Below are positions 18,740 to 41,884 of a DNA stretch of 48,770 nt, in pieces. Each line of letters opens with the position of its first letter. The stretch's first letter is position 1. The stretch spans positions 32,001 through 80,770 of IMG/VR virus record IMGVR_UViG_3300006802_000085. The stretch is one strand, 5' to 3'. Both the position numbers and the translations under genes were made by a program. A model generated the notes under the pieces. The model made no database searches. It saw nothing but the letters and a program-made list of their open reading frames with translations, and was not told the DNA's origin. The DNA is from a virus.

Positions 18740-18768
18740 TTGCGCGTCGGCGCGCGACGGTTCATAGT
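18740..18768 (+). promoter_or_regulatory. promoter cassette type B, copy 1
   Basis: TTGCGC, 17-base spacer, CATAGT. The spacer contains the inverted repeat GCGCG-TCGG-CGCGC overlapping the -35. ATG 18775 is the seventh base after the -10, at the expected +1: leaderless. Confidence 0.8.
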
Positions 18769-18774
18769 CTTCTC

Positions 18775-18945
18775 ATGACGACGACACACAACAACACGGA
18801 AACGGTGTCCGACATCCACGGCAACAAGGTCGGCGTCGTTGAGTGCGACGGCGGCGAGTGGGTCGCCTACAACCTCAGCGACATCGAGGTCTACCGCGGC
18901 CCCTCGTTCACCGCGGCGTGCGACGCGGCGCGGGGTGAGTCGTGA
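18775..18945 (+). CDS. small hypothetical protein
   Basis: 56 residues: MTTTHNNTETVSDIHGNKVGVVECDGGEWVAYNLSDIEVYRGPSF, a short beta-rich protein. The start is set by the type B promoter, not by a ribosome site. First gene of an array joined by GTGA overlaps. Unknown; early host- or defence-interacting role is a guess from position and size. Confidence 0.6.
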   Translation: MTTTHNNTETVSDIHGNKVGVVECDGGEWVAYNLSDIEVYRGPSFTAACDAARGES

Positions 18946-19178
18946 AGCCCCGCTCCTGGACGTCCAACGGGTACCGGTACTGGAGCCTGGTCACCGCGGA
19001 GGCGGAGGTCGTGGCCTCGGTTCCCGAGGGGTACACCCCGCACTTCCCGCCGATGCACGCGACGTACGAGGTGTACACGATCAAGAAGGGGCTCGCGAAG
19101 TTTGAGGGGTACGCGGAGGGCGAGCAGCGGGCGCGCCTGCACCACGCGTTCGGGTGCGCGTTCGGGAGGCAGTCGTGA
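18942..19178 (+). CDS. small hypothetical protein
   Basis: 78 residues from GTG 18942 (GTGA overlap). Aromatic-rich: YRYWSLVTAEAEVVASVPEGYTPHFPPMHATYEVYTIKKG. No family recognised. Coupled at both ends. Confidence 0.55.
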   Translation: MKPRSWTSNGYRYWSLVTAEAEVVASVPEGYTPHFPPMHATYEVYTIKKGLAKFEGYAEGEQRARLHHAFGCAFGRQS

Positions 19179-19420
19179 GCGGCTTTGACAAGTGGTTCGT
19201 GACGTTCCTGAACGAGAAGGGCGTCGACTTCGAGGAAACCTTCGAGGTCATGGGGCCGAGCGGGGTGAACTTCATCCCCGTCGGCTGCATCGTGGAGCTT
19301 GCGGCGTCGGCACCCGACCACGAGCAGCGCGCCATCAAGTCGACGTGCGTGAAGATCGACTTCGTGAACGGCGACGTACGCCACTTCCTGAAACACCTCG
19401 CGACCGCGGTGGCACGGTGA
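19175..19420 (+). CDS. small hypothetical protein
   Basis: 81 residues from GTG 19175 (GTGA overlap): FDKWFVTFLNEKGVDFEETFEVMGPSGVNFIPVGCIVELAASAP. Mixed alpha/beta, unrecognised. Confidence 0.55.
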   Translation: MSGFDKWFVTFLNEKGVDFEETFEVMGPSGVNFIPVGCIVELAASAPDHEQRAIKSTCVKIDFVNGDVRHFLKHLATAVAR

Positions 19421-19968
19421 AGCGCCGCCGACAAACGGCGCGGACGCCGGAGCAAGAGGCGAAGCGCGCGGCCGAGCGTGAGGCGCACGAGGCGAGCAAG
19501 CGCGAGTGCCAGATCTGCGAGCGCCACCAGTGCGTCGACGCTCGCGGCAACATGGTCCTGCACGGCTACACCCGGCCAGGCTACGGCTTCATCCAGGGGA
19601 GCTGCTTTGGGGTCGGGCATGTCGACTACGCGCGCGGGACGGACGCGCTGGAGGCGTACGCGGCGCAGCTCGAAGGCTTGCTCGCGGACGCAAACGAGAA
19701 CGTGCGTCGCTACGTCGCCGGGGAGGTCACGCACTTCACGACCTCCGCGCTGGCTTACGACTTGGACGAGCGCGGCTGGATCATCTATGACGGCAGGAAG
19801 CCGCGGATGAAGACGGTGTTTACGTCGTGGGCGCCGGGCGTGTCGCACCCGTCGAAGTACTCGGCACAGCTCCAGTCGGCGCATGCGTCTGCGGCACAAC
19901 ACGCGAGGCTACTCGCGGCAGAACTGGGGCGGGTCCGGGCCCGTATCGCGGCGTGGGTGGCGCCGTGA
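19417..19968 (+). CDS. hypothetical protein with Cys/His cluster
   Basis: 183 residues from GTG 19417. A charged N-terminal helix leads to CQICERHQCV, a possible metal site, then GYTRPGYGFIQGSCFGVGH. The C-terminal half is a long helix (SAQLQSAHASAAQHARLLAAELGRVRARI). Unknown function; overlaps both neighbours. Confidence 0.6.
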   Translation: MKRRRQTARTPEQEAKRAAEREAHEASKRECQICERHQCVDARGNMVLHGYTRPGYGFIQGSCFGVGHVDYARGTDALEAYAAQLEGLLADANENVRRYVAGEVTHFTTSALAYDLDERGWIIYDGRKPRMKTVFTSWAPGVSHPSKYSAQLQSAHASAAQHARLLAAELGRVRARIAAWVAP

Positions 19969-20090
19969 GGCGCGTCCGGTGGGTCTGCCCGGCCGGGGCG
20001 CACGCGGCCGTTCTCGGGTCCTCTAGGCCCCGGCGCGACGAGGCGGCGCACGCCGAGGCCGCGTTTTTCTGGGGGCTCGAAAAAAAGTAG
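19965..20090 (+). CDS. 41-residue ORF ending AAFFWGLEKK
   Basis: GTG 19965 overlaps the upstream stop. The last residues AAFFWGLEKK* recur at the end of the 40988 gene, where the DNA is also nearly identical. The A-run giving the Lys codons belongs to the block that precedes type B promoters, so the peptide may be an incidental reading of a DNA element. Confidence 0.4.
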   Translation: MRRVRWVCPAGAHAAVLGSSRPRRDEAAHAEAAFFWGLEKK

Positions 20091-20110
20091 GGGTCGGGGC
20101 AGAAAAAGTG

Positions 20111-20139
20111 TTGCGCGTCGGCGCGCGATGGTTCATAGT
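20111..20139 (+). promoter_or_regulatory. promoter cassette type B, copy 2
   Basis: TTGCGC-N17-CATAGT with GCGCGTCGGCGCGC in the spacer. ATG 20146 is 7 bases after the -10: leaderless. Confidence 0.8.
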
Positions 20140-20145
20140 CTTCTC

Positions 20146-20349
20146 ATGACGACGCCGATTGCAAAACTGATTGTGACCGAGATCGTGATGGAGACCCGTC
20201 GCGCGATGGTACCCGGACACGAGTACGTGTACATCACCGGCTGCTGCGGCGGGGTGACGTCGAACCGCCGCCGCGCCCCGCACCCCCCGGCCAAGTGGGT
20301 CAAGTGCCCGTGCTGTGGCGGTCGGAACGGCGTGGATTGGTGGTCATGA
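20146..20349 (+). CDS. small zinc-ribbon-like protein
   Basis: 67 residues. TGCCGG and later VKCPCCGGRNGVDWW make a CC...CxCC metal-binding pair. Start placed by the type B promoter. Unknown role. Confidence 0.6.
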   Translation: MTTPIAKLIVTEIVMETRRAMVPGHEYVYITGCCGGVTSNRRRAPHPPAKWVKCPCCGGRNGVDWWS

Positions 20350-20350
20350 A

Positions 20351-20378
20351 CCCGGGGAGCCGAGTAGGGCTCCCCGGG
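20351..20378 (+). other. GC-rich stem-loop
   Basis: Eleven-pair perfect stem (CCCGGGGAGCC / GGCTCCCCGGG) with a 6-base loop, two bases after the upstream stop. It is followed by CTGACTG and an A-run rather than T residues, so termination would be weak. Confidence 0.6.
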
Positions 20379-20417
20379 GGCTGACTGAAAAAAAAGACGC
20401 GCCGACGCGAAAAAGTG

Positions 20418-20446
20418 TTGCGCGTTGGCGCGCGATAGTTCATAGA
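20418..20446 (+). promoter_or_regulatory. promoter cassette type B, copy 3
   Basis: TTGCGC-N17-CATAGA; spacer GCGCGTTGGCGCGC. This copy has a leader of about 54 bases. Confidence 0.8.
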
Positions 20447-20455
20447 TAGATCACC

Positions 20456-20470
20456 GGGTCGCGGTGACCC
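20456..20470 (+). promoter_or_regulatory. 5'-leader hairpin of the 20507 gene
   Basis: GGGTC-GCGGT-GACCC, starting three bases after the predicted transcript start. The same GCGGT loop occurs in the leader at 41891. Confidence 0.55.
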
Positions 20471-20506
20471 AAACCAAAGCCAACCGGCAGAAGATCGGAG
20501 ACCACC

Positions 20507-21244
20507 ATGAGCTACGAGAACGCCCCCGCCACCAAGCTCCTCGCCACCAACTGCGCCTGCTGCGGCCGCGCCCTCGTCGACGCCATCAGCGTCGAGACGG
20601 GTGTGGGCCCGGACTGCCGCGCGATGCACGGCTACGACGACGCGCAGGGCGAGCCGGACTGGGAGCGCGCGATGGCGCTGCTCGACGGCTGCGTGCCCGT
20701 GGCCGAGGTCAACCCGACGATGGCGCCGCGCGACGCCGTGAACGTGCTCGTGCACCGGGTCGCGCGGCGTGGCGCGAGCATCGACCGCGAGGCGGCAGCC
20801 GCGATCTTCCGCGCGATCGACGCCCTCGGCTTCGCCGTGCTCGCGGCGCGCATCGCCAAGCGTTTCCGCATGACGGTGGAGGAGCCGGTGGTCGAGGCGC
20901 CGCAGGGCCCGAGCATCGACGACCTCCGCCGCGAGTACGCGCGCATTCGCCACGTCCGCTGCTACGACGGCGTCGAGCCGCGCGAGTTCGACGCCGTCGT
21001 GAGGGCGTACCTCGGCGACGCCGCCGGGCCCGCCGACTTCGTCGCGGCGGCGTCGACCGTCGCCTGCCCGTGCAAGCGGTGCCGCGGCACGGGTGAGTAC
21101 GTGTTCCGCGCCAACGACGGTGACACCCGCCGCGCCGAGTGCTTCCGCTGCGGCGGCAAGGGCACCCAGGACCTCTCGGACGCGCACCGCAACCGCGCGT
21201 ATGATGCTCACCGCCGTGCGCCGCGTGGTGCGGTCGCTGCGTGA
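20507..21244 (+). CDS. zinc-finger protein (DUF6011-like N-terminus, DnaJ-like C-terminus)
   Basis: 245 residues; CGGAG ribosome site. The N-terminus CACCGRALVDAISVETGVGPDCRAM fits the short zinc motif of DUF6011-type phage proteins. The C-terminal CKRCRGTGEYVF...CFRCGGKGTQ is a CxxCxGxG pair like the DnaJ zinc centre. The middle (DAVNVLVHRVARRGASIDREAAAAIFRAID) is helical. Role unknown; perhaps nucleic-acid or protein binding. Confidence 0.7.
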   Translation: MSYENAPATKLLATNCACCGRALVDAISVETGVGPDCRAMHGYDDAQGEPDWERAMALLDGCVPVAEVNPTMAPRDAVNVLVHRVARRGASIDREAAAAIFRAIDALGFAVLAARIAKRFRMTVEEPVVEAPQGPSIDDLRREYARIRHVRCYDGVEPREFDAVVRAYLGDAAGPADFVAAASTVACPCKRCRGTGEYVFRANDGDTRRAECFRCGGKGTQDLSDAHRNRAYDAHRRAPRGAVAA

Positions 21245-21252
21245 GTTGACCC

Positions 21253-21296
21253 CTGAGGTTCCGCCCCGACTGCGCGCAGTCGGGGCGCCTCCTCAG
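21253..21296 (+). terminator. long perfect inverted repeat, possible terminator
   Basis: A 24-base perfect palindrome (21263-21286, GCCCCGACTGCG arms) nested inside CTGAGG/CCTCAG. No T-run follows, so intrinsic termination is uncertain. Confidence 0.5.
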
Positions 21297-21320
21297 CGGC
21301 CGACGAAAGGGAAAAGGGAG

Positions 21321-21770
21321 ATGACCATGGGATCGAACGGAATGACGACGTCACACGATGATGGCGAGCCCGCCGCGAAGGCGCGGGTCTTCAAGGGCGC
21401 GGGTTGGAAGTTCTCGCGCAACGGTCCGGTCGTGACCGGCGAGAACATGCGGTACACGTACACGGCAACGATCTGCGAGGTGTACGCGCCCGTGGGCACG
21501 TACACCGGGGGCCCAAAACGCCTCGTCGATGTCGCGCTGATCTCCGGGAAGTGGCACGCGCTCACGCAGGCGACGGCGGGCGGGGGGCGCAATCGGGTGA
21601 TGCCGCTGGAGACGTTCCTCGCCCGGTACACGCACGGCGCCCGCAAGGGCACGGCGAAGCCCGGGGCGAAGCCCGGGGCGAAGCCGTCGGCAGGGGACCT
21701 CGACCGAATCGAACGCAAGCTCGACGCGCTACTCGCGGCGCTCGGCATCGTGGTGGAGGGCGGGTCGTGA
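21321..21770 (+). CDS. hypothetical protein with PGAK repeat
   Basis: 149 residues from ATG 21321 behind AAAAGGGAG. VFKGAGWKFSRNGPVVTGENMRYTYTATICEVYAPVGTYT is beta-rich. A linker of tandem 12-base repeats encodes AKPGAKPGAKP, then a short helix (GDLDRIERKLDALLAALG). Unknown. Confidence 0.6.
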   Translation: MTMGSNGMTTSHDDGEPAAKARVFKGAGWKFSRNGPVVTGENMRYTYTATICEVYAPVGTYTGGPKRLVDVALISGKWHALTQATAGGGRNRVMPLETFLARYTHGARKGTAKPGAKPGAKPSAGDLDRIERKLDALLAALGIVVEGGS

Positions 21771-22021
21771 ACGCGCGCGAAGAGGACAAGGCGATCGAGG
21801 ACGTGATCCGGCGCGGAGTGGCGTCGCCGCTGACGCGCTACCGCGTGACCCTCGTGTGCGACTGCTACGCCGACGCCGCGTACGGGTACGGGCCGACGCG
21901 CGAGAGCGCGCTCAACCGGGCGGTGCGTCACTTCCGCCGTGCGCACGGGCCCCGGGCGAAGGTGGGGGAGACCATCGTGGAGGAGGCGCTCACCGGCCAC
22001 TACGAGGAGATCGAGTCGTGA
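21767..22021 (+). CDS. small hypothetical protein
   Basis: 84 residues from GTG 21767 (GTGA overlap): YRVTLVCDCYADAAYGYGPTRESALNRAVRHFRRAHG, a strand-helix pattern resembling small dsRNA- or ferredoxin-like folds. Not recognised. Confidence 0.55.
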   Translation: MNAREEDKAIEDVIRRGVASPLTRYRVTLVCDCYADAAYGYGPTRESALNRAVRHFRRAHGPRAKVGETIVEEALTGHYEEIES

Positions 22022-22311
22022 AGCTCACGGTGACCATCGACGGGGCCGAGTACACGCTCGACCCCGAGGCCGAGAGCGCGCGCGTGCGCGGGCTCGACGT
22101 GTGCCCGCGGTGCGGGCGCAAGCCCCACCCCGAGCAGGGCGTGCACGTGCAGGGGCGGGGCAGGCGCATCGCCGACCACGACGTCTACGAGGCGGACGGG
22201 TACGCCTACTGCTGCGGCGCCGCGCTCGGTCTCATCCGGGCGCGGGTGTCCACGATCTTCGGCTTGGAGGAGGACGAGCGCGTGCTCTATGGTCGCGCGC
22301 GGGTGTATTGA
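22018..22311 (+). CDS. small zinc-binding hypothetical protein
   Basis: 97 residues from GTG 22018. CPRCGRKPHPEQG and a later YAYCCGAA suggest a metal site. Its last six codons (GRARVY*) lie in the first copy of a 106-bp direct repeat. Confidence 0.55.
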   Translation: MKLTVTIDGAEYTLDPEAESARVRGLDVCPRCGRKPHPEQGVHVQGRGRRIADHDVYEADGYAYCCGAALGLIRARVSTIFGLEEDERVLYGRARVY

Positions 22312-22316
22312 CCGGG

Positions 22317-22334
22317 CGTTTACCCGGGTAAACG
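22317..22334 (+). repeat. dispersed palindrome, copy 4 (perfect)
   Basis: CGTTTACCCGGGTAAACG, followed by GGATAATTCC. It lies 31 bases upstream of a type B -35. Confidence 0.92.
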
Positions 22335-22364
22335 GGATAATTCCCCGAGCGAGAAAAAAAAGTG

Positions 22365-22393
22365 TTGCGCGTTGGCGCGCGATAGTTCATAGA
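22365..22393 (+). promoter_or_regulatory. promoter cassette type B, copy 4
   Basis: TTGCGC-N17-CATAGA, spacer GCGCGTTGGCGCGC. ATG 22400 is 7 bases after the -10: leaderless. Confidence 0.8.
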
Positions 22394-22399
22394 TAGATC

Positions 22400-22621
22400 A
22401 TGATCATCGCTACCGCATACGTACACGTCGTGGGCAAGGGCTGGTTCCGGGCCGAGATGACCGATCGATGGGTGCCGTCGTACGTCGGCGCCGCGCGTCA
22501 GACCAAATACTACGAGCGCCGCGGGCGGGAGTACGTCGAGATCGCCTACTCCGACGTGCCCCGCTCTGCCTACCGCGCTCTGCGCCGCGCTCTGCGCCGC
22601 GAAACCGCGCCCGGCGAGTGA
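22400..22621 (+). CDS. small hypothetical protein
   Basis: 73 residues: MIIATAYVHVVGKGWFRAEMTDRWVPSYVGAARQTKYYERRG. Near its end the DNA has a tandem GCTCTGCGCCGC duplication (RALRRALRR). It is the only gene inside the 331-base repeated unit. Unknown. Confidence 0.6.
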   Translation: MIIATAYVHVVGKGWFRAEMTDRWVPSYVGAARQTKYYERRGREYVEIAYSDVPRSAYRALRRALRRETAPGE

Positions 22622-22647
22622 GGTCGCGCGCGGGTGTATTGACCGGG

Positions 22648-22665
22648 CGTTTACCCGGGTAAACG
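22648..22665 (+). repeat. dispersed palindrome, copy 5 (perfect)
   Basis: CGTTTACCCGGGTAAACG inside direct-repeat copy B. Confidence 0.92.
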
Positions 22666-22695
22666 GGATAATTCCCCGAGCGAGAAAAAAAAGTG

Positions 22696-22724
22696 TTGCG
22701 CGTTGGCGCGCGATAGTTCATAGA
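22696..22724 (+). promoter_or_regulatory. promoter cassette type B, copy 5
   Basis: TTGCGC-N17-CATAGA; ATG 22731 is 7 bases after the -10: leaderless. Confidence 0.8.
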
Positions 22725-22730
22725 TAGGAC

Positions 22731-23018
22731 ATGACGACGGCGACGACAAAGGCTCTGGTGGCGGACGTGGTGATCGAGGCGAAGTTCCCGCGCGTCAGCG
22801 GTGGTGACGAGTGCGAGGGTCGGCTCATCAGCCGCGGGGCTGAGCGGCTGGGGCTGATCGCCCGGGTCTTCGAGGCCAAGGACATCGGTTTCGCGACCGC
22901 GCGCTACCAGAACATGACGGTGGGGTACCGGTTCGAGAATTGGGTGACCGAGGAGGATCGCGAGTACCCGACCCTGCGCGAAGCGATGGCTGCGGCACGA
23001 GCCGCGTTTTCGAAGTGA
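22731..23018 (+). CDS. small hypothetical protein
   Basis: 95 residues: TTKALVADVVIEAKFPRVSGGDECEGRLISRGAERLGLIARVFEAKDIGFATARYQ, then a C-terminal helix (TLREAMAAARAAFSK). Compact alpha/beta, unrecognised. Last gene of the first small-gene array. Confidence 0.6.
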   Translation: MTTATTKALVADVVIEAKFPRVSGGDECEGRLISRGAERLGLIARVFEAKDIGFATARYQNMTVGYRFENWVTEEDREYPTLREAMAAARAAFSK

Positions 23019-23068
23019 GTGAAGTGTGTGCGCGCCCGGCAGACGACCGGGAGAAAAAGGAGGACGAC

Positions 23069-25129
23069 ATGAGGAAGCGAAGCGAAGCGGTGGCGAAGAA
23101 GTCGGCGACGAAGTCGGCGACGAAGTCGGCGCAGCAGAAGATGCCGGTGACCGCCGAGACGTTCACGGCCGGGCTCAACCCGGAGCAGGTCGCGGTTGTG
23201 ATGCACGACGACGGGCCCGCGCGCGTGTTCGCCCTCGCGGGGTCGGGCAAGACCGAGTCGTTCGCGCGACGCGTGGCGCGACTCGTCGCCGTGCGCGGCG
23301 TCGACCCCGAGCGCATCCTCGCCGTCACCTTCTCGAAGAAAGGGGCGGACGAGATGCAGACGCGCATCGCGAAAAAGTTCGGGGTCGCCGGTGCGCGGAT
23401 CGGCACGTGGCACTCGCTCTGCCTTCAGATCCTGCGCGAGGACAAGACCGAGCAGGCGACGTGGTCGATCCAGGACTCGGGCCCGGGCACGAGCCCGAAG
23501 ATCGTGCTGAAGGACGTGCTCGGCTGGAAGGGCATGGACTGGAAGGGCGCCGACCTCGCCGCGGTCGAGTCGTTCATCGGCCGGTGCAAGGCGAACCTGT
23601 ACACGCCCGACTCGCCCGAGGCGGCCGACCTCGCCAAGCGCGCGTTCGGCTGGCAGGCGGGGCAGGCGACGCGCGCGTTTCGCCTCTACAACGAGGCGCT
23701 CCGCGACCGGATGATCCTCACCTTCGACGACTTCCTCGTCTTCGCCGCCGAGCACCTGTCGGCCGACGAGAACGCGCGGCGCTCGTGGGCGTCGCGCTGG
23801 GACTACGTGATGCAGGACGAGGCGCAGGACGCGAACCGCGCGCAGGCGCGCATCGGCACCCTGCTCGCGCAGGACCACCGCAACTACATGGTCATCGGCG
23901 ACTGCTACCAAGCCATCTACGGCTTCCGCGGTTCGTCGCCCGAGTACCTCGCGCAGTTCGATCGCGAGTGGCCGGACGCGCGCACGTACGTGCTCCCGCG
24001 CAACTATCGCAGCGGGCGCACCATCATCGCCGCCGCCAACGCCGTCGTCGCGCTCGCCACCGTCGACGGCATCGACGTGCCCACGCAGATGATCGGTGAG
24101 CGCGACCTCGACGGCGCCGTGAGCATCACCTGCACCGAGAGCCTCGACGACGAGGCCAACGTCGTCGCCGACGCCATCGTGTCCAGCACGCGCACGGGCG
24201 AGAGCGTGCTCAGCGACCACACCATCCTGTTCCGTACCAACGCGCAATCGCGCGCGCTGGAGGAGGCGCTTCTCGCGCGCCGCGTCCCCTACGTCGTCGT
24301 CGGCGGCGTGAGCTTCTACGAGCGCAAGGAGGTGCGCGACCTCCTCGCCTACCTGCGGCTCGCGGCGCGCCGCGGGCGCGTCGAGGACATCAAGCGCAGC
24401 ATCAACACGCCGTTCCGGTTCCTCGGCGCGCGCTTCGTGGACAAGGTCATGGCCGCTGCTGAAGCGTACGGGGAAGCGGGCGTGAACTGGGCGGAGGTGG
24501 TCGAGGATGTGTGTGAGCGCGAGCGGGTCCAATCGCGTCAGCGCGCGAGCGCGCGCGACTGGGTCGGGCTCATCCGCTACATGCAGGGCGCGATCGACGG
24601 CGGGTCGGCGGACGAGGCGCGGCCGGCGGCGTTGCTGGAGCACGTGGTGTCGACGACGCGTTACATCGACTACCTCAACAAGGAGGAGGGCGGCGAGACC
24701 ACCGAGAACAGCGGCGCCGCGAACGTGCGCGAGATGGTCCGTGTCGCGGAACGGTTCGCCACCGCGGCGGAGCTGCTCGACTACATCGACGAGACCATCG
24801 CGAGCGCGCGCCGTCAGCGCGAGGACAAGCAGGCGGGCGGCGAGCGCGTGCTGCTCATGAGCGTGCACCGGTCGAAGGGGCTGGAGTGGCCGCGCGTCTA
24901 CGTCGTGGGGATGAACGAGATGATTCTGCCCCACGCCAAGGGCGACGACCAGGAAGAGCGGCGGCTCGCGTACGTCGCGATGACGCGCGCGCGCGACCAC
25001 CTGTACCTGTCGCACGTGCGCCGCATCGCGGTGCGCGCCGGCATCCGCGATGCGGAGCCGAGCCGGTTCTTGCTCGACACCGGGCTGCCGCTCGACGCGC
25101 CCCGCGCGGTGGCGATGGGCGCGGAGTGA
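23069..25129 (+). CDS. UvrD/Rep-family SF1 helicase
   Basis: 686 residues from ATG 23069 behind AAAAGGAGG. Walker A ALAGSGKT (55-62), motif Ia LAVTFSKKGADEM, motif II as QDEAQD, motif III GDCYQAIYGFRGS, motif IV NYRSG, and motif V/VI SVHRSKGLEWPRVYVVGMN with EERRLAYVAMTRARDHLYL. This is a full 3'-5' SF1A helicase for repair or fork restart. The N-terminus MRKRSEAVAKKSATKSATKSA is basic with a tandem 12-base repeat and belongs to the shared M(K/R)xRSE group. Confidence 0.9.
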   Translation: MRKRSEAVAKKSATKSATKSAQQKMPVTAETFTAGLNPEQVAVVMHDDGPARVFALAGSGKTESFARRVARLVAVRGVDPERILAVTFSKKGADEMQTRIAKKFGVAGARIGTWHSLCLQILREDKTEQATWSIQDSGPGTSPKIVLKDVLGWKGMDWKGADLAAVESFIGRCKANLYTPDSPEAADLAKRAFGWQAGQATRAFRLYNEALRDRMILTFDDFLVFAAEHLSADENARRSWASRWDYVMQDEAQDANRAQARIGTLLAQDHRNYMVIGDCYQAIYGFRGSSPEYLAQFDREWPDARTYVLPRNYRSGRTIIAAANAVVALATVDGIDVPTQMIGERDLDGAVSITCTESLDDEANVVADAIVSSTRTGESVLSDHTILFRTNAQSRALEEALLARRVPYVVVGGVSFYERKEVRDLLAYLRLAARRGRVEDIKRSINTPFRFLGARFVDKVMAAAEAYGEAGVNWAEVVEDVCERERVQSRQRASARDWVGLIRYMQGAIDGGSADEARPAALLEHVVSTTRYIDYLNKEEGGETTENSGAANVREMVRVAERFATAAELLDYIDETIASARRQREDKQAGGERVLLMSVHRSKGLEWPRVYVVGMNEMILPHAKGDDQEERRLAYVAMTRARDHLYLSHVRRIAVRAGIRDAEPSRFLLDTGLPLDAPRAVAMGAE

Positions 25130-25140
25130 AGGAGGGGATG

Positions 25141-25806
25141 ATGGCGAATCTCGACAAGCTCATGCACGCGCTGCGCGACGGCGCGATCGACTTCGGCGCG
25201 TACGTGGCGCAGACGCGGAGGGAGTACGGCTCGATGGCGCGCTACCTGCTCCGGCGCTGGCGCGTGCCGGAGTGGGTGAACGAGCACGACGTCGAGCAGG
25301 AGCTGTACTTGGAGACGTGGCGCATGGTGGTGGACGGTGGGTGTTCGTGGGAGTCGGGACGAGGGCCGACGCTCGCGCGGTGGGTGGTGTTCGGCGCGAT
25401 GTCGGCGGCGAAGCGCAAGCTGCACCGCGCGCGGGGAGTGAGCGTGAGCGGCAACCCCGACCGCTTGCCCTCACCTCGCCACGAGCGGCCGATCTCCCAC
25501 ATCGAGGATTCGGGCGAGTCGCTTCTCGACACGCTTCACTCGACGGAGCCACCGGCCGATGCGGCGCTGGAACGGGCCCAAGAAACGCGCCGCGCCGCAA
25601 CGGCGGCGCTCCGTGCCTGCACCACGCGTGCGGAACGCTATGCCGTGCTGGCGGTCCGTGAAGCGGGCTCGGTGGACGGAGCGGCGGCGGTGCTGTACGA
25701 GGACATAGACCATCGCATTGCGCTCCGGCTCGGGGACGAGGTCGCGGCGGATCGTTTTGTGCGCCGGCGAGCGGCGGCGGTGGCGCGGAGGATGATGGGG
25801 GCGTAG
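25141..25806 (+). CDS. sigma-factor-like protein (region 2 only)
   Basis: 221 residues; AAGGAGG fits ATG 25141 better than ATG 25138. Residues about 30-98 match sigma-70 region 2: YLLRRWRVPEWVNEHDVEQELYLETWRMV (compare the region 2.2 pattern DLVQEVFLRAW) and LARWVVFGAMSAAKRKLHRARG. The C-terminal half shows at best a degenerate region 4, with no clear helix-turn-helix. Phage T4 gp55 is a known sigma that reads only a -10 box. This protein is a candidate reader of the CATAACC boxes, which lack a -35; that link is inference. Confidence 0.55.
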   Translation: MANLDKLMHALRDGAIDFGAYVAQTRREYGSMARYLLRRWRVPEWVNEHDVEQELYLETWRMVVDGGCSWESGRGPTLARWVVFGAMSAAKRKLHRARGVSVSGNPDRLPSPRHERPISHIEDSGESLLDTLHSTEPPADAALERAQETRRAATAALRACTTRAERYAVLAVREAGSVDGAAAVLYEDIDHRIALRLGDEVAADRFVRRRAAAVARRMMGA

Positions 25807-25873
25807 GGGCGAGGGTTGACGCGGCCAGTGGGCCGCGGTGATGTGTTGGACCAAGTAGCAGGAGGATAGAGCG

Positions 25874-27187: not shown

Positions 27188-27198
27188 GCCGGACGCGC

Positions 27199-33793: not shown

Positions 33794-33797
33794 CCGC

Positions 33798-34530: not shown

Positions 34531-34538
34531 CCCTGGGC

Positions 34539-34775
34539 ATGACGATCTCGTTCGCCGACGCCGCCGCGCAAGCGGTCGCGCTGTTCCGCCGAGCCGGCTA
34601 CCCCGGCGCCGACATCACCGTCGCCGTGCCCGCCGTGGACGTGCTCGCGCTCCAACGCGAGCCCGAGGTGGCGCGCGCGATCGTGGACCACGCCATGGCA
34701 CCGCCTGTTGCCGCGCCTAGGGGGCGCGTCCTGGGCCTCGTCGCCGGGGTCCGGGTGGTCGTGGGGGGAGAATGA
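34539..34775 (+). CDS. small hypothetical protein
   Basis: 78 residues: FADAAAQAVALFRRAGYPGADITVAVPAVDVLALQREPEVARAIVDHA. No ribosome site; start set by the type C box. Between the nuclease and ATPase genes. Unknown. Confidence 0.55.
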   Translation: MTISFADAAAQAVALFRRAGYPGADITVAVPAVDVLALQREPEVARAIVDHAMAPPVAAPRGRVLGLVAGVRVVVGGE

Positions 34776-35146: not shown

Positions 35147-37059
35147 TCCGGGCAATCATCTTGCGCAACGCCGGGCCGTTCCGCGGCGACCACGTGGTGG
35201 AGCTAGGGCCGGTGGCGTACGCGCTCACGGGCAGGTACGACGCCGACCCGGGCCGAAGCAACTGGTCAGGGAAGTCTTTCTTGCTGGAGATGGTCGAGTA
35301 CGCGCTCACGGGCAAGACGGCGGCGAGCCGCGCCTTCGACGCCGACGGATGGATCACGCGTGGCGAGACCGCGGGCAGGGTCGAGCTGGTGCTGGAGGAC
35401 GGGGCGGCGATCGTGCGCGAGCGGCGACGGGGCAAGCCCACACAGTCGGCGTTCACGGGCGCGGCCGGCAAGGCGACGCAGGCCGAGGCCGACGCCGCCG
35501 TGCTCAATCACATCGGATTCAGCGCCGACGACTTCCGCAACGTCGCCTACTTCGAGCAGGGGATGATGACTCGGTTCGTCCGCACCGAGCCCTCGCACCG
35601 GATGGAGATCGTGCGCGGGTGGTTCGGGATGGAGACGGCGGAGCAGGCGGTGGCGGTGGCGTCCGCGCGCGTCCGCGTCATCGTCGACGAGCTGGAGCCG
35701 TTGCGGGCTCGGCGCACCGCCATCGTGGGCATGCTGGAGGACGTGCCGGCGCTTGCCACGGAGCCGCTGGTCGCGGCGCGGGACGCGCTCGCGCAGAAGC
35801 TTGCGTACGAGCGCGAGCGGGCCGGCGAGGCCGAGGCCGTGGCGGCGGCCGAGGCCGCGATCGCCGAGTACAACGGCGTCGTGCGCGCGGGCAAGCAAGC
35901 GACGGCGACGCTTGCTGGCTTGCCCGACGGCGTGGACGCTGCTGCCGCGAGCGCGCGCGAGGCGTCGATACAGGCGATGGCCGCCGCCGCGCTCGCGCGC
36001 CGCGAGGTTGGCGAGCGCGCACGCGTCGCCCGCGGCGAGTTCGATGGCCGGTGCCCGGTCGCCGACATCGAGTGCCCGGCGCGAGCGCGCATCAACGCCG
36101 ACCGAAGCGGCGCCGCGTCGGTGCTTGCCCGTGCCCGCGAGAAGCACGGCGCGCTCGCGAACAAGGCGGCGGCGGCGGCGGAGGCGGCCGAGGAGTTGGC
36201 GGCGCTAGCGGGGGCGAAGCGCGACGCCGAGCACACGGTGGAGCGGCTACGCGCGAGTGCGCGCGAGATGTTGCCCAAGGTGAAGGCGGCGCAGGCGTTG
36301 CTCAAGCACCAACCCCAAGCACCCGCGCTAGACGCGCTCGCGCTCGCGTCGCTGGAGGAAGAGCATGCGCGCGCGGTGCGGGCGGTGGCCGACGCGGAGG
36401 CGGCGCGCGACCACCGCGCGCGGTTGGAGTCGAAGCTGCTCAAGCTGAACGAACGCGTGCGCTGGTGCGAGTCGGAGATGATGGCGGCGGCTGCGGCCGC
36501 GTCCGTGTTCCGCGCCGCGCAGCGACGCATCGGCGAGCGCGCCCTCGCCGGCATCGTCGACGCCGCGAACGCGACCATGGCCGGGTCCGGGATCGACCTG
36601 TCGGTGGCGGCGCGCTGGGAGCGGTCGGGCAAGTCTGCGGCGCGCGCGTGCGAGGTGTGCGGCCGCGCGTTCCCGGCCACGCTCCGGGTCAGGGAGTGCG
36701 CGTGCTGCGGCGCGGAGCGCGGCGCCGCCGTCGTGCGCCGGCTCGACTTCGAGCTGTCGGACCGGAGCGGGGCCGCGGACGGGATCGCGGGCGTGGCGCT
36801 GCAGCTCGCGGCCGGGGCGTGGCTGCTCCGCAAGCGGCAGTCGCCGTGGGCGACGGCGATGCTGGACGAACCCCTGGCCGCGTGCGACCGTACCAACAGG
36901 CGCGCGCTCGCGGGGCAGCTGGTGCGGCTCTTGGGCGCGGGCACGTGGAGGCAAGCGATCGTGGTCAGTCACTCGAACGATGTCGTCGACATGTACCCGG
37001 GCCGCATCGAGGTCGTGGTCGGTCGCGACGGCGCGCGCGCGATCCGGGTGACGGCGTGA
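35143..37059 (+). CDS. SbcC/Rad50-like SMC ATPase
   Basis: 638 residues from ATG 35143 (ATGA overlap). The N-terminal half-ATPase has the P-loop variant RSNWSGKS followed by FFRG-like and YFEQGMMTRF segments. Two Ala/Glu-rich coiled coils flank a cysteine turn CPVADIEC, a hook-like C-x6-C rather than the usual CxxC. The C-terminal half includes a four-cysteine ribbon (CEVCGRAF...CACCG), then the signature-like region, AMLDEPLAACD (Walker B) and VVSHSND (H-loop). It should pair with the 33798 nuclease to process DNA ends. Confidence 0.82.
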   Translation: MIRAIILRNAGPFRGDHVVELGPVAYALTGRYDADPGRSNWSGKSFLLEMVEYALTGKTAASRAFDADGWITRGETAGRVELVLEDGAAIVRERRRGKPTQSAFTGAAGKATQAEADAAVLNHIGFSADDFRNVAYFEQGMMTRFVRTEPSHRMEIVRGWFGMETAEQAVAVASARVRVIVDELEPLRARRTAIVGMLEDVPALATEPLVAARDALAQKLAYERERAGEAEAVAAAEAAIAEYNGVVRAGKQATATLAGLPDGVDAAAASAREASIQAMAAAALARREVGERARVARGEFDGRCPVADIECPARARINADRSGAASVLARAREKHGALANKAAAAAEAAEELAALAGAKRDAEHTVERLRASAREMLPKVKAAQALLKHQPQAPALDALALASLEEEHARAVRAVADAEAARDHRARLESKLLKLNERVRWCESEMMAAAAAASVFRAAQRRIGERALAGIVDAANATMAGSGIDLSVAARWERSGKSAARACEVCGRAFPATLRVRECACCGAERGAAVVRRLDFELSDRSGAADGIAGVALQLAAGAWLLRKRQSPWATAMLDEPLAACDRTNRRALAGQLVRLLGAGTWRQAIVVSHSNDVVDMYPGRIEVVVGRDGARAIRVTA

Positions 37060-37580
37060 GCCGGCGCGTCGTGGTCGGGCTCGACCTGTCGCTGCGCGCG
37101 GCGGCGGCGGCGCGGGTGACGTTGCCGTGGGACGGTGACCTGGAGGACGTGATCACGCGCGTGGTCGGTCAGGACCTGAGCGCGGGCTCGGAGCCGGAGG
37201 CGTACGCGCGCCGGCTCGATCTCATCGCCACCGCCATCGCCGACTTCTGCGAGGGCGCCGACGCCGTCTACGTCGAGGAGTACGCGTTCTCGTCGATGAG
37301 CAAACGCGCGCACTCGCTCGGTGAGGTCGGGGGCGTGGTGAAGTTGGAGCTGTTCCGGCGCAGCGGCCGATCGCCCACGCCTGTGACGGCGTCGACCGCG
37401 CGCAAGACCATGTTGCAGAAGCTGCCGCGCGCGGGCGTGAAGCCGTTCACGATGCGCAACGTGCGCCGGCTCGGACCGCCGGCGAACAAGTGGACCGAGG
37501 ATCAGATCGACGCCTTCGTGACGATGAACCACGGTGTCATGCTAGAGGGCGGTGTGGCCCTCACGTTTTTGGGGGAGTAG
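37056..37580 (+). CDS. RuvC-like Holliday junction resolvase
   Basis: 174 residues from GTG 37056. VVVGLDLSLRA gives the first acidic residue (D10), VYVEEYAF the second and DQIDAFV the last, the RNase H-fold acidic triad of RuvC-type nucleases. Phage members resolve recombination junctions and trim branched DNA before packaging. Overlaps the SbcC-like gene by GTGA. Confidence 0.75.
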   Translation: MSRRVVVGLDLSLRAAAAARVTLPWDGDLEDVITRVVGQDLSAGSEPEAYARRLDLIATAIADFCEGADAVYVEEYAFSSMSKRAHSLGEVGGVVKLELFRRSGRSPTPVTASTARKTMLQKLPRAGVKPFTMRNVRRLGPPANKWTEDQIDAFVTMNHGVMLEGGVALTFLGE

Positions 37581-37584
37581 GAGG

Positions 37585-38310
37585 ATGGTGAACGTGCACG
37601 ACGACGAGGATGGGGCGATCATTCACAAGCCGACGATGGTGAGCGCGGCAGCGCTCGCGCCCGCGGCGTACAACCCGAACAAGATGCGCCCGGAGGAATA
37701 CGAGGCGCTCAAGGAGAGCATTCGCGAGCACGGGTTCGCGGAGTCGGTGACGGTGCAGAAGACGGGGATGCGGATCATCGCCGGTCACCACCGGGTCCGC
37801 GCGGTCAGGGAGATCGCGATCGAGAGCGGCGCCGCCATCCCCGAGATCCCGTGCATCGTCCTCGACGTGGACGACGCCGCGGCCAAGCGTCTCAACCTCA
37901 AGCTGCAACACATCCACGGCTCGCCCGATGCGCACATGATCGGCGAGCTACTGCTCGACATCCACCGCGAGCACGCGTTCGACCCCGACGAGTCGCTGCG
38001 CTACGGGTTCGCGCTCGACGACGTCATGAAGTACATGCGTGTGATCGAGCCCGACCTCGGGCAGATCGTGGACGCGGGCGCGCGCGACCCCGTGCCGTCC
38101 TTCGGGCGCAGCCCGACGCTGGCTCTGGAGTTCGAGACCGAGGCCGGGCGCGATGCGGTCAAGAAACTCCTCGCCGAGCGCACCGACGTCGAGAAGAAGA
38201 AGAGCGGGGACGTCGTCGCTTTCGCGCTTGGTCTTGGTGTGAAGCGTAAGCCGGCGGCTACTACCAAGCCGATTCCCGGTTCAAACAAGAAGAAGCGCGC
38301 AAGACGGTAA
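37585..38310 (+). CDS. ParB/Srx-domain protein
   Basis: 241 residues from ATG 37585 (GGAGG-type site just before). Residues about 14-110 are a ParB N-terminal domain: LAPAAYNPNKMRPEEYEALKESIREHGFAESVTVQ, then MRIIAGHHRVRAVREI with the GHHR signature and LDVDDAAAKRLNLKLQH. The C-terminus is basic (KRKPAATTKPIPGSNKKKRARR). In phages such proteins commonly sit beside DNA methyltransferases, as here, so partition is not implied. Whether it binds the palindromes is open. Confidence 0.8.
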   Translation: MVNVHDDEDGAIIHKPTMVSAAALAPAAYNPNKMRPEEYEALKESIREHGFAESVTVQKTGMRIIAGHHRVRAVREIAIESGAAIPEIPCIVLDVDDAAAKRLNLKLQHIHGSPDAHMIGELLLDIHREHAFDPDESLRYGFALDDVMKYMRVIEPDLGQIVDAGARDPVPSFGRSPTLALEFETEAGRDAVKKLLAERTDVEKKKSGDVVAFALGLGVKRKPAATTKPIPGSNKKKRARR

Positions 38311-38311
38311 C

Positions 38312-39664
38312 GTGATGGGCAAGAGCTGGGACATCATGCACGGCGACGTGCGGCGCGTGTGCAAGACGCAGTTGGAGGCGGAGAGCTTTGACGCATGCTT
38401 GTGCGATCCTCCCTACGGTCTTTCGTTCATGGGCAGGGCGTGGGATTACCAGGTTCCAAACGCGATGCTATGGGCAGAGGTGTTGCGCGTACTTCGTCCC
38501 GGCGCGCACGCGATGATCTTTGGCGGTTCGCGCACGTTTCATCGAGTGGCGTGCGCGGTTGAGGACGGGGGCTTTGAGCTACGCGATTGTCTGATGTGGA
38601 TGTACGGGTCGGGGTTTCCGAAGTCGCTCGACGTGAGCAAGGCGATCGATAAGGCTGTGGGTGCGGCGCGGAAGGTAGTGGGACAAAAGCACGTGACCAA
38701 CGCGGCGCAGGGCAAGGGTCTAGGTCACGGCAACCTGATCGGCGGCAAGGTTCGGGCGGGGTTCATCGACATCACAGCGCCCGCTACCGACGCCGCACGC
38801 GTGTGGCAAGGCTACGGCACCGCGCTCAAGCCAGCACACGAGCCCATCGTGCTCGCGCGCAAGTCACTCGACGGCACCGTCGCAGAGAACGTGCAACGGT
38901 GGGGGTGCGGCGCGCTGGCGATTGATGCGTGCCGTATCGAAAAACAGCCCGGGGACACGAGCGGTTGGTCCTCGTCAGGTAGCAAGGCCAGTGAGAATAT
39001 TGCGATGTCCGGCGCGAACTACGCGCGCGACCCGAAGCCAGACGCGGTCGGCCGCTGGCCCGCGAACGTCATCTTAGACGCGGAGGCCGCCGCGGCGCTC
39101 GACGCGCAGACGGGGGACCGGCCGAGCACGTTGTTCGGACGCGCGGACCCACTCACATCCCACACGCACCCGGCCAGTCCAGACCGAACGCGCGGTTCCA
39201 TGTTCGGAAACAAGCGGGCGGGTGGCGGCGTCTACGCAGACAGCGGTGGCGCTTCCCGTTTCTTCTACACGGCTAAGGCCGATGCGTTCCAACGTGAAGC
39301 GGGATGCGATGAGCTTGCGCCCGCCGTCGCGAAGGGCACCGACACCCTTCGCGACGGCGGGCGCGGGAAAGCCACGCGAGCCAACACACACCCGACGGTC
39401 AAGCCCATCGATCTAATCCGCTACCTCGCGACACTCATTCTCCCACCACCGAATCCGAATCGGCCGCGCAGGATCTTGGTCCCGTTCTCGGGGTCGGGGT
39501 CGGAGATGATCGGGTGCCTGCAAGCGGGATGGGATGAGGTCGTGGGCATTGAACGGGAAGCTGAGTACATCACGATCGCGAGGGCGCGCATCACTCGCGG
39601 CGGTGTGCTCTCGCGACTCGATCGCAAGAAGAAGGCGGTCCCGACGCGCCGGCGCAAGCCATAG
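38312..39664 (+). CDS. site-specific DNA methyltransferase (N4/N6 type)
   Basis: 450 residues from GTG 38312 (ATG 38315 close by). The catalytic motif DPPYGLSF is at 32-39 and the SAM motif FSGSGSEMIGCLQAG at about 392, so this is the beta-type order. The middle is long (HPTVKPIDLIRYL before the SAM motif). The gene uses less GC-biased codons than its neighbours, with more AT in third positions, a hint of recent transfer. Its last 30 residues (RARITRGGVLSRLDRKK...) have a relic copy at 45767. Probably protects phage DNA from host restriction. Confidence 0.87.
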   Translation: MMGKSWDIMHGDVRRVCKTQLEAESFDACLCDPPYGLSFMGRAWDYQVPNAMLWAEVLRVLRPGAHAMIFGGSRTFHRVACAVEDGGFELRDCLMWMYGSGFPKSLDVSKAIDKAVGAARKVVGQKHVTNAAQGKGLGHGNLIGGKVRAGFIDITAPATDAARVWQGYGTALKPAHEPIVLARKSLDGTVAENVQRWGCGALAIDACRIEKQPGDTSGWSSSGSKASENIAMSGANYARDPKPDAVGRWPANVILDAEAAAALDAQTGDRPSTLFGRADPLTSHTHPASPDRTRGSMFGNKRAGGGVYADSGGASRFFYTAKADAFQREAGCDELAPAVAKGTDTLRDGGRGKATRANTHPTVKPIDLIRYLATLILPPPNPNRPRRILVPFSGSGSEMIGCLQAGWDEVVGIEREAEYITIARARITRGGVLSRLDRKKKAVPTRRRKP

Positions 39665-39687
39665 CTGGGCAGGCGTAAAGAAAAGTG

Positions 39688-39716
39688 TTGCGCGTCGGCG
39701 CGCGATGCTTTATCGT
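39688..39716 (+). promoter_or_regulatory. promoter cassette type B, copy 6
   Basis: TTGCGC-N17-TATCGT with the GCGCGTCGGCGCGC spacer. The first 23 bases after the methyltransferase stop hold nothing else. Confidence 0.78.
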
Positions 39717-39725
39717 ATCTCTAGT

Positions 39726-39746
39726 GGGGCGGCACTGAGTCGCCCC
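39726..39746 (+). promoter_or_regulatory. 5'-leader hairpin of the 39763 gene
   Basis: GGGGCG and CGCCCC around a 9-base loop, beginning three bases after the predicted transcript start; TAGGAGG ribosome site follows. Confidence 0.5.
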
Positions 39747-39762
39747 CGGTAGGAGGTGCGAG

Positions 39763-40053
39763 ATGGGGATCGAGATCAACGAGAGCCGGTACGGTAACCC
39801 GCAGCCCGTGTACGCGCTCAACCGTGACTGGGTGCGGTCGGCCCACCACCGCGAGGTCGCGGCGGCGGTCTACGACCTCGCCGCGCGCATCGAGCGACGG
39901 ACCCCCACCGGGGCAAGCTGGGTGGTCGTGCCCGACGTCCACCGCGCCCTCGTGCGCATCGAGTTGAGCGAGGGCGGCGATTCCAAGACCGAGCAGGACG
40001 CGGCGATGGCGACCCTCCGCGCCGTGGCGTGGGCAACATTGGCGTCGACGTAG
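39763..40053 (+). CDS. small hypothetical protein
   Basis: 96 residues behind TAGGAGG. NRDWVRSAHHREVAAAVYDLAARIERRTPTGASWVVVPDVHRALVRIEL: helical, then a strand. First gene of the second small-gene array. Unknown. Confidence 0.6.
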   Translation: MGIEINESRYGNPQPVYALNRDWVRSAHHREVAAAVYDLAARIERRTPTGASWVVVPDVHRALVRIELSEGGDSKTEQDAAMATLRAVAWATLAST

Positions 40054-40112
40054 GCGTCACGGGGCGTCGAGTACGTGCAGGGACAGCGGCGAGAAGAGGA
40101 AGGGGTGACGCG

Positions 40113-40373
40113 ATGACGAGGCAGGAAGCGAATGCGATCTTGTGCGCGATCTTGTGCGCGGCCGATTCGACGCCGGGCGGCGCGCCCGAGGGCGTCATGT
40201 ACGCGGCGCTGATGAACCGGTGTGATCTCCCCACGTTCCGCGCGGTGCTCGACATCGCGCGCGGCGCCGGGCTGGTGACGAGCAGCGGCTTCGTTGTGCG
40301 CACCACGCCCAAGGGGCACGACATGGTGCAGTCGATCGAGGCCGCGATGCGGAAGGCTGGGGCGGCGCTGTGA
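40113..40373 (+). CDS. small winged-helix-like protein
   Basis: 86 residues from ATG 40113 behind GAGGAAGGGG. GVMYAALMNRCDLPTFRAVLDIARGAGLVTSSGFVVRTTPKGHDM is a winged-helix pattern (helices, then wing, then last helix), like small phage or archaeal regulators. The 59-base gap before it holds no other signal I can name. Confidence 0.6.
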   Translation: MTRQEANAILCAILCAADSTPGGAPEGVMYAALMNRCDLPTFRAVLDIARGAGLVTSSGFVVRTTPKGHDMVQSIEAAMRKAGAAL

Positions 40374-40540
40374 ACGCCGCCGGCAAGGTGGACGTGGACC
40401 GCGTGAAGGTGCCGTGCCTCGGGCTGCGCGTGGTGCGCGAGCGCACGCTCACGCTGCCGGCGCGCAAGGCGGCGGACGCGCAGATCGCCGCCGAGAAGAA
40501 GGCCGCGCGCAAGGCCGCGCGCAAGGGGGTGTCGCGGTGA
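40370..40540 (+). CDS. 56-residue Lys/Arg/Ala-rich protein
   Basis: GTG 40370 overlaps the stop before it. MNAAGKVDVDRVKVPCLGLRVVRERTLTLPARKAADAQIAAEKKAARKAARKGVSR. The basic C-terminal helix suggests nucleic-acid contact. Coupled to the next gene by GTGA. Confidence 0.5.
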   Translation: MNAAGKVDVDRVKVPCLGLRVVRERTLTLPARKAADAQIAAEKKAARKAARKGVSR

Positions 40541-40797
40541 GCGCTTATACGATCATCCGCCCCGACGTCGCCACGCGCGCGCATGCGTGCGCCCGCGGCG
40601 TCTACCAGGCCGCGCTGTTGCGTGGCGAGGAAGCATGGAGCGGCTCCACGCTCAGGGGCAAGGCCGCGCGCTACAGCGCGCGCTACAAGGCGTCACGCGA
40701 GGCGCTGCTCGCCCGGCTGCGCGAGGCCGGCATCACGGTCGACGTCGAGCGCACGCGCCCGCACGGGCGCATCGTTGTCACGATCGGGGCGTCGTGA
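40537..40797 (+). CDS. small basic hypothetical protein
   Basis: 86 residues from GTG 40537. RAHACARGVYQAALLRGEEAWSGSTLRGKAARYSARYKASREALLARLREAGITVDVE, mostly helical and Arg-rich. Unknown; overlaps both neighbours. Confidence 0.55.
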   Translation: MSAYTIIRPDVATRAHACARGVYQAALLRGEEAWSGSTLRGKAARYSARYKASREALLARLREAGITVDVERTRPHGRIVVTIGAS

Positions 40798-40991
40798 GGA
40801 CGCACACCCGCAACACCATCCCCGCGCTCGTCGTCGGTCGAGCGGGGGCTCGCGTCTTCGGCAGCATCGCCGAGGCCAGGCGACACGCGGCCGCGACCGA
40901 GGGCGCGACCGTGTACGTGCCCGCGCACGCGCACGAGCCCGGCGCGATCACGGTCGACGGCGAGACGTGGCGACCCGAGGCGTGGGCGTGA
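40794..40991 (+). CDS. small hypothetical protein
   Basis: 65 residues from GTG 40794. TIPALVVGRAGARVFGSIAEARRHAAATEGATVYVPAHAHEP, a strand-helix-strand pattern. Unknown. Confidence 0.5.
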   Translation: MRTHTRNTIPALVVGRAGARVFGSIAEARRHAAATEGATVYVPAHAHEPGAITVDGETWRPEAWA

Positions 40992-41392
40992 GCGCGCTCT
41001 CCCATGACGTGCCGTCCCGCCCCTGCACCGGGTGCTGGGGGCGCGGTTGCTACGCGCAGCGGGGCCGTGGTGGGCCTCGCCGCCCCTACGACCCCCGCAC
41101 CTTCGACCAGGGTGCGGGCGACGTCTACGAGGCGTCCTGCGCCGACTGCCGGGGGTTGGGGCGGGTGTTCATCAGCGCCGAGGAGGCGGCGGCAGACGCG
41201 CGGCGCGAGGCCGATGGCGCGCGCGCGAGCTACCGCGGGTATCGGTGGGAGATCTGCAACGAGTACGGCATCGGGCGCGAGGAGTTCGACTCGTTCGCCG
41301 CGCGGCGGCTCGGGCGCGACCGCTCGCCCCGGGCGTGGGTCGCTGCCGCGCGCGCCGTCGCCGCGTTTTTCTGGGGCCTCGAAAAAAAGTGA
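40988..41392 (+). CDS. DnaJ-like zinc protein ending AAFFWGLEKK
   Basis: 134 residues from GTG 40988. CTGCWGRGCY and CADCRGLGRV resemble the paired CxxCxGxG motifs of the DnaJ zinc centre, also seen in the 20507 protein. A helical middle (EEAAADARREADGARASY) follows. The end AAFFWGLEKK* is shared with the 19965 ORF and runs into the A-tract before the next type B promoter. Confidence 0.6.
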   Translation: MSALSHDVPSRPCTGCWGRGCYAQRGRGGPRRPYDPRTFDQGAGDVYEASCADCRGLGRVFISAEEAAADARREADGARASYRGYRWEICNEYGIGREEFDSFAARRLGRDRSPRAWVAAARAVAAFFWGLEKK

Positions 41393-41412
41393 GGGGTCGG
41401 GCAGAAAAAGTG

Positions 41413-41441
41413 TTGCGCGTCGGCGCGCAATAGTTCATTGT
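41413..41441 (+). promoter_or_regulatory. promoter cassette type B, copy 7
   Basis: TTGCGC-N17-CATTGT, spacer GCGCGTCGGCGCGC. Confidence 0.78.
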
Positions 41442-41447
41442 TGACTT

Positions 41448-41468
41448 GTCGGACGGGATGACCCGGAC
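41448..41468 (+). promoter_or_regulatory. 5'-leader hairpin of the 41490 gene
   Basis: GTC-GGA(bulge)-CGGG-ATGA-CCCG-GAC starts exactly at the predicted first transcribed base. Confidence 0.5.
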
Positions 41469-41489
41469 GCGAAAAGGAGCAAGCAGACC

Positions 41490-41765
41490 ATGAGCATCCC
41501 CGCCTTCGCCACCGTGTCCGCCACCGCGTCGGTCGTCCCCGTCGCTAAGTTCCGCGATGCGGTCGAGCACGTCGAGCGCCTGCTCACCGTCGACCGCCAC
41601 GCGTGCGTGACCGCGGGCGAGGTCGCGCAGTGGCGTGACCGCCTGCGCGCCGCCGGCGCCGATCTCATCGCCACCACGTGCAAGCGCGCGCTCATGTCGG
41701 ACTGGGAACGCCGCGAGCGCGCCATCGACCGGTCGGCGAGCGTGCTCGCGGCGGTGGCGTCGTGA
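41490..41765 (+). CDS. small helical hypothetical protein
   Basis: 91 residues behind AAAAGGAG. FRDAVEHVERLLTVDRHACVTAGEVAQWRDRLRAAGADLIATTCKRALMSDWERRERAIDRSASVL is all-helical. Unknown. Confidence 0.6.
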   Translation: MSIPAFATVSATASVVPVAKFRDAVEHVERLLTVDRHACVTAGEVAQWRDRLRAAGADLIATTCKRALMSDWERRERAIDRSASVLAAVAS

Positions 41766-41836
41766 GCGGCGCCGGCGCCAACCACACCACCACCATGCCC
41801 TCGGGCCGCGTTTGCGGGCGCCTGAAAAAAAAGTAG
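41762..41836 (+). CDS. 24-residue ORF ending LKKK*
   Basis: GTG 41762 overlaps the upstream stop; MSGAGANHTTTMPSGRVCGRLKKK. Like the 19965 ORF it ends in the A-tract block preceding a type B promoter. May be a coincidence of the block. Confidence 0.3.
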   Translation: MSGAGANHTTTMPSGRVCGRLKKK

Positions 41837-41855
41837 GGGTCGGGGCGAAAAAGTG

Positions 41856-41884
41856 TTGCGCGCCGGCGCGCGGTGGTTCATTGT
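41856..41884 (+). promoter_or_regulatory. promoter cassette type B, copy 8
   Basis: TTGCGC-N17-CATTGT; spacer GCGCGCCGGCGCGC makes the inverted repeat fully palindromic here. Confidence 0.8.

Follow-up and report, generated by a model that had tools for sequence, protein, structure and literature searches.

The window analysed here comprises 48,770 nucleotides, bases 32001–80770 of the virus record IMGVR_UViG_3300006802_000085 (80,770 bp), from an uncultivated, GC-rich (69% GC) phage; feature positions are 1-based coordinates of this window throughout. A 38-bp block, GAAAAAGTG-TTGCGC-G[TC][CT]GGCGCGCRRYRSTT-CATWGW, was present in eight copies (P1 to P8), all on the + strand, and occurred nowhere else in the 80.8-kb record. 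A sequence-only reading of the same DNA had placed eight promoter cassettes at 18740, 20111, 20418, 22365, 22696, 39688, 41413, and 41856, with exactly 17 bases between the hexamers and CATAGT, CATAGA, CATTGT, or TATCGT as the −10 element. The positions, the 17-base gap (8/8 copies), and the −10 variants were all confirmed.

Numbering counts from the predicted start (+1), seven bases past the −10 element. Every copy had an A-run at −43 to −39 (beginning one base later in one of them), where the proximal subsite of the UP element lies, at −45 to −37 when numbered likewise (PMC2613000). The A-run was followed by GTG (GGT in P1), the −35 element TTGCGC at −35 to −30, the 17-bp spacer G[TC][CT]GGCGCGCRRYRSTT, and the −10 element CATWGW at −12 to −7 (TATCGT in P6). 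Each cassette had been described as preceded by a G-rich or A-run block; the A-run was ahead of all eight, but the G-rich block was ahead of some copies only.

Sigma70-type promoter spacers normally vary freely. Here the spacer carried 1.63 bits of information per column, compared with 1.96 and 1.84 bits for the two hexamers and 0.37 bits for random columns, so the description of the spacer as nearly fixed holds, and it is constrained almost as strongly as the hexamers. The inverted repeat was also present, but it overlapped the −35 element (TTGCGCGYYGGCGCGCRA, −35 to −18) and did not merely touch it; the spacer string given earlier therefore takes in part of the hexamer. Likewise the 29-base cassette was real, but the conserved block was longer, from −44 to −7. 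Mean pairwise identity was 86% inside this block, 38% just upstream, and 32% downstream, against 29% for random pairs. P4 and P5 were a recent duplication (113 bp, 98% identity), leaving about seven independent copies, and P2, P7, and P8 had upstream sequence in common. Dinucleotide shuffles gave an expectation of 0 cassettes against the eight observed. When a weight matrix built from the copies was run over the whole 80,770-bp record, the eight copies scored 63–76 bits and the next-best site 5. The family is all-or-nothing, with neither weak relatives nor free-standing palindromes.

Transcription from sigma70-type promoters begins 6–8 bases beyond the −10 element. The seventh base after the −10 element was a purine in 8/8 copies, and what stood at this base divided the cassettes into two halves. 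In P1 (18731–18768), P2 (20102–20139), P4 (22356–22393), and P5 (22687–22724), the predicted start (18775, 20146, 22400, and 22731, respectively) was the A of an ATG opening a small open reading frame (ORF) of 56, 67, 73, and 95 codons (18775–18945, 20146–20349, 22400–22621, and 22731–23018). Leaderless (TA-led) genes are marked by a −10 element about 12 bp ahead of the start codon (PMC3160421), and in these four copies the hexamer lay at −12 to −7 of the ATG, with no Shine-Dalgarno (SD) sequence. The RNA predicted to begin there was nearly unstructured (0 to −3.8 kcal/mol). P1, P2, P4, and P5 are thus predicted to give leaderless mRNAs.

The other four copies showed a hairpin starting within +1 to +4, followed by an SD sequence and an ATG. 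P3 (20409–20446) had its predicted start at 20453 and the ATG at 20507 (245 aa, DUF6011 domain). P6 (39679–39716) had its predicted start at 39723, followed by a strong hairpin, GGAGG, and an ATG at 39763 (96 aa). P7 (41404–41441) was predicted to start at 41448, with AAGGAG and an ATG at 41490 (91 aa), and P8 (41847–41884) at 41891, with a 7-bp stem and an ATG at 41929 (120 aa). The hairpin energies of P3, P6, P7, and P8 were −8.5, −16.4, −10.8, and −13.6 kcal/mol, respectively; those of P6, P7, and P8 were stronger than most shuffles, whereas that of P3 was not. The start distance had been given earlier, and the register of the start with an ATG or a hairpin is new. Together with copy number, fixed spacing, and sharp block edges it can be read directly from the letters, and it offers the best evidence that the cassettes are promoters.

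Small genes of unknown function surround P1 to P5, and downstream of them lies a replication block encoding a UvrD-type helicase (the gene next after that of P5), a family B DNA polymerase, a UvsX-like recombinase, an SbcD-like nuclease, a RuvC-like resolvase, a ParB-like protein, and a DNA methyltransferase. P6 to P8 head a second small-gene array ahead of the terminase. Both strands were inspected, and the strong coding candidates around the cassettes were all on the + strand, in the direction of the cassettes. The genes downstream of the cassettes had no detectable homology to one another. Just upstream of P1, an intrinsic terminator on the + strand (18691–18720, GC stem and T run) closes the preceding operon. 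The placement of small genes at the heads of the arrays suggests early expression. Elsewhere the phage carries a head module and a contractile tail of the Mu-like type, and no tyrosine integrase was found in it.

Taken together, we consider it probable that the eight cassettes form one class of sigma70-type promoters, which are used coordinately and whose protein-recognition box overlaps the −35 element. Two hexamers 16–18 bp apart ahead of genes, as in sigma70-type promoters, were found in all eight copies, always at 17 bp. A search of the phage for a sigma70 region 2 domain gave none, and none of the four predicted genes longer than 680 codons (gene modelling covered the + strand) was a plausible RNA polymerase; the host polymerase is therefore the likely enzyme. 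Host RNA polymerase with a sigma70-type factor would read the eight cassettes as one class through the A-tract, TTGCGC, the 17-bp spacer, CATWGW, and the purine start. The promoters would be transcribed and would act early. Half of them would give leaderless mRNAs, beginning directly with the A of AUG, and the other half mRNAs opening with a hairpin and then an SD sequence. One protein bound to the near-invariant box at −38 to −20 would lead to expression of both small-gene arrays together. A sigma54 promoter, which has GG at −24 separated by ten bases from GC at −12, was also considered and rejected, as the dinucleotide ten bases past the conserved GG was an invariant TT, not GC.

The earlier proposal of an operator built into the promoter stood only in its promoter half, on the 17-bp spacing, the A-tract at the UP position, and the fixed start register with ATG or 5′ hairpin. 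Dyad scores of the copies were 6–8 of 9 pairs, and among random 29-mers of this genome 26% reached 6 pairs and about 6% reached 7. As the copies share descent, this symmetry counts as one observation, not eight. A search of the whole 80.8-kb record gave no copy of the palindrome away from the promoters, in contrast to stoperators and other dispersed operators. The box overlapping the −35 element may plausibly be the operator of a repressor, the binding box of an activator, or an extended element for the polymerase. The poor agreement of the hexamers with the sigma70 consensus (7/12) slightly favours activation by a box-binding protein, as at T4 middle promoters, over repression. That one regulator would switch both arrays together can reasonably be inferred. 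A candidate regulator is a 102-aa helix-turn-helix-like protein encoded on the + strand at 18342–18650, directly upstream of P1.

Several observations weigh against the promoter class with its recognition box. The dyad is not statistically unusual and lacks the beyond-chance symmetry expected of a repressor operator. The 102-aa protein is the sole regulator candidate nearby; its DNA-binding match is weak, and its helix-turn-helix-like model is of low confidence. Related phages with common head and tail genes lack the cassette. The hexamers match TTGACA/TATAAT at best 7/12, although high-GC hosts use looser hexamers, and a sigma70 consensus scan of both cassette regions detected no sigma70 promoter. 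The poor consensus match lowers the sigma70-type claim without excluding that class. A real, well-defined promoter family, strengthened by the start register, is what the sequence argues for, and the operator is put forward as a hypothesis.

Other explanations of the fixed spacer were weighed against the same data. The holoenzyme, either as such or in a phage-modified form, may itself read the spacer, through an extended −35/spacer element or a co-factor that recruits RNA polymerase, with no separate switchable regulator; the set would then be simply strong and phage-specific. The palindrome was always accompanied by the −35 and −10 elements, conservation is unbroken from the A-tract to the −10 element, and phiC31 promoters likewise conserve the −35 element and the adjoining half of the spacer. 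Against this, the phage has no detected sigma70 region 2 domain of its own, and most of the spacer is not known to be contacted specifically by host sigma70 (PMC2613000), so that an additional factor would be required all the same; we regard this explanation as unlikely, though the foremost among the alternatives. It is less likely still that the spacers are alike only through recent copying, by duplication or recombination, and have no function of their own. The P4/P5 duplication and the upstream sequence common to P2, P7, and P8 are what such copying would leave, but mean identity falls at once to 29–38% beyond the limits of −44 and −7, these limits of the block match functional boundaries, and the downstream genes share no detectable homology.

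The inverted repeat could also work as RNA or single-stranded DNA, forming in transcripts that read through from the upstream gene a stem-loop (terminator or stability hairpin) that lies inside the next promoter. TTGCGCG-YYGG-CGCGCRA pairs in all copies when G-U is allowed, the variable arm columns differ by pairing-preserving transitions only, and seen from the − strand the element looks like a terminator hairpin whose T run is displaced. A minus-strand terminator was rejected, as there were no convincing − strand genes nearby. On the coding strand no T run follows, too few columns vary for covariation, and the fixed spacing to the −10 element and the start codon is left unexplained, which makes a stem-loop very improbable as the reason for the conservation. 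Promoters of a phage-encoded RNA polymerase, either T7-like or of the N4 virion type with a hairpin promoter, resemble the cassettes in their near-invariance over 38 bp. However, the + strand ORFs longer than 680 codons encode a tape measure protein, a large protein with an adjacent paralogue, the UvrD-type helicase, and the family B DNA polymerase, and the hairpin centre lies here at −26.5, compared with N4-type promoter hairpins near −12. A PF00940 (T7-like polymerase) search of the phage was silent, but its controls were equally silent. We give a phage polymerase hardly any credence.

The preferred promoter class was compared with known phage systems, for phiC31 on the basis of the phiC31 sequence; the early promoters of phiC31 and the leaderless promoters of Cluster O came closest. 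The Streptomyces phage phiC31 has two repeat families. One is a promoter block, GGGTTGCCGACTCCCTT, which occurs in about ten copies upstream of genes and covers the −35 element together with part of the spacer. The other is a dispersed palindrome, CCTACTCACGTGAGTAGG, in about 15 copies. In the present phage, too, a conserved promoter block is accompanied by a dispersed palindrome distinct from it, and several near-identical, phage-unique promoters head its gene groups, as in phiC31. In contrast to the present cassette, the phiC31 block is not palindromic and ends mid-spacer. Genes of phiC31 begin about 40–70 bp past the block start, whereas those of the leaderless copies begin at +1, and phiC31 has an annotated integrase and repressor where no tyrosine integrase was found here. 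The phiC31 CIBs are repressor sites. Unlike the CIBs and stoperators, the palindrome of the cassette lies within promoters only.

For the Cluster O mycobacteriophages (Corndog group), the available passages of PMC4351075 describe predicted SigA-like promoters whose mRNAs are leaderless, the first codon base being +1, and, separate from these, a 17-bp palindrome of unknown function that is dispersed. The present phage shares predicted leaderless promoters and a dispersed palindrome with this group. The Cluster O palindrome lies outside the promoter, and in those passages the promoters are not described as near-identical with a conserved spacer. From its sequence, the present phage appears to work like the phiC31 and Cluster O systems; its sequences are unrelated to theirs, and its spacer is fixed more completely. 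In T4 middle promoters the MotA box takes the place of the −35 element and is combined with a sigma70 −10 element (PMC2988021), an arrangement similar to the phage-specific box that here overlaps the −35 region. The MotA box is about 9–10 bp, non-palindromic, and change-tolerant, whereas about 19 bp of the present box are near-invariant. Neither a MotA nor an AsiA homologue turned up in the phage, where no search was aimed at either. Cluster A mycobacteriophages also have repeated repressor-type sites, both at promoters and genome-wide, but their operators and stoperators are asymmetric and dispersed (PMC4351075, PMC9283540), unlike the present box, which is found inside promoters only.

The sequence-only reading had proposed to follow the cassette into related genomes. 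A relaxed 29-base pattern gave 0 matches in IMG/VR, and no relative with the cassette was found. A scan of bacterial and archaeal genomes for the cassette also gave 0 matches, and a looser 22-base pattern gave in IMG/VR only three unrelated sites, which had neither a −10 element nor the start-codon register. Searches of IMG/VR with the capsid and tail sheath detected relatives in the head and tail, whose early and other regions were unrelated. No relatives were found via the DNA polymerase, the helicase, a 489-aa protein, or UvsX, and the tail sheath search of genomes gave no prophage or host. The absence of a second case of the cassette from the databases may be a sampling effect. Two of the related contigs had repeats of their own. 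Contig G012 (L053, L054) carried a dispersed palindrome, TCATAAATCGATTTATGA, unrelated in sequence to the dispersed palindrome of the present phage, in seven copies 3–10 kb apart (1439, 4475, 10773, 15418, 20189, 25021, and 34690). At the end of contig G011 (L051 1–470), a 117-bp unit was repeated about four times head to tail.

Further repeats and genes were observed in the present record. The dispersed, near-perfect palindrome GCGTYTACCCGGGTARACGC occurred in 13 copies in the 80.8-kb record, both between and inside genes (window positions 10485, 12668, 18638, 22319, 22650, 29916, 35018, 42674, 44433, and 46836, and three sites before the window). It resembles the phiC31 CIBs or a ParB-type site, and a ParB-like protein is encoded by this phage. 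A second promoter-like element, CGCGCCATAACCC, was present in seven copies (12357, 12689, 15722, 27194, 31003, 34520, and 43993), and in 5/7 of them an ATG or GTG followed exactly six bases downstream with no SD sequence (0 expected). Copies of it stand ahead of the genes for a helicase, a DnaB-like helicase, and the family B DNA polymerase, and it is possibly a second leaderless promoter class that has no −35 element. The intergenic stretch at 12204–12395 is unusually A+T-rich for this genome; it precedes a CGCGCCATAACCC element, lies 3′ of a weak D5-like regulator match, and is a possible origin or regulatory region. Two adjacent large genes, at −705 to 2804 (beginning before the window) and 2881–4083, encode products 25% identical over 350 aa, probably receptor-binding or tail fibre paralogues.

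Eight near-identical promoters that place the predicted RNA start on a start codon or on a small hairpin suggest a coordinated gene set. We tentatively propose, at less than even confidence, that one phage or host factor reading the GC-rich box, which overlaps the −35 element and fills the spacer, switches the two distant small-gene arrays together, and that the same promoter design yields, depending on the gene, leaderless mRNAs or mRNAs with a protective 5′ hairpin. Precise predicted start sites are also gained for this lineage of uncultivated phages. With their near-fixed spacer and fixed start register, the eight copies offer a natural experiment, and a clean one, for asking what reads spacer DNA, and the split between leaderless and 5′-hairpin mRNAs from one promoter design could let the phage set translation independently of transcription.

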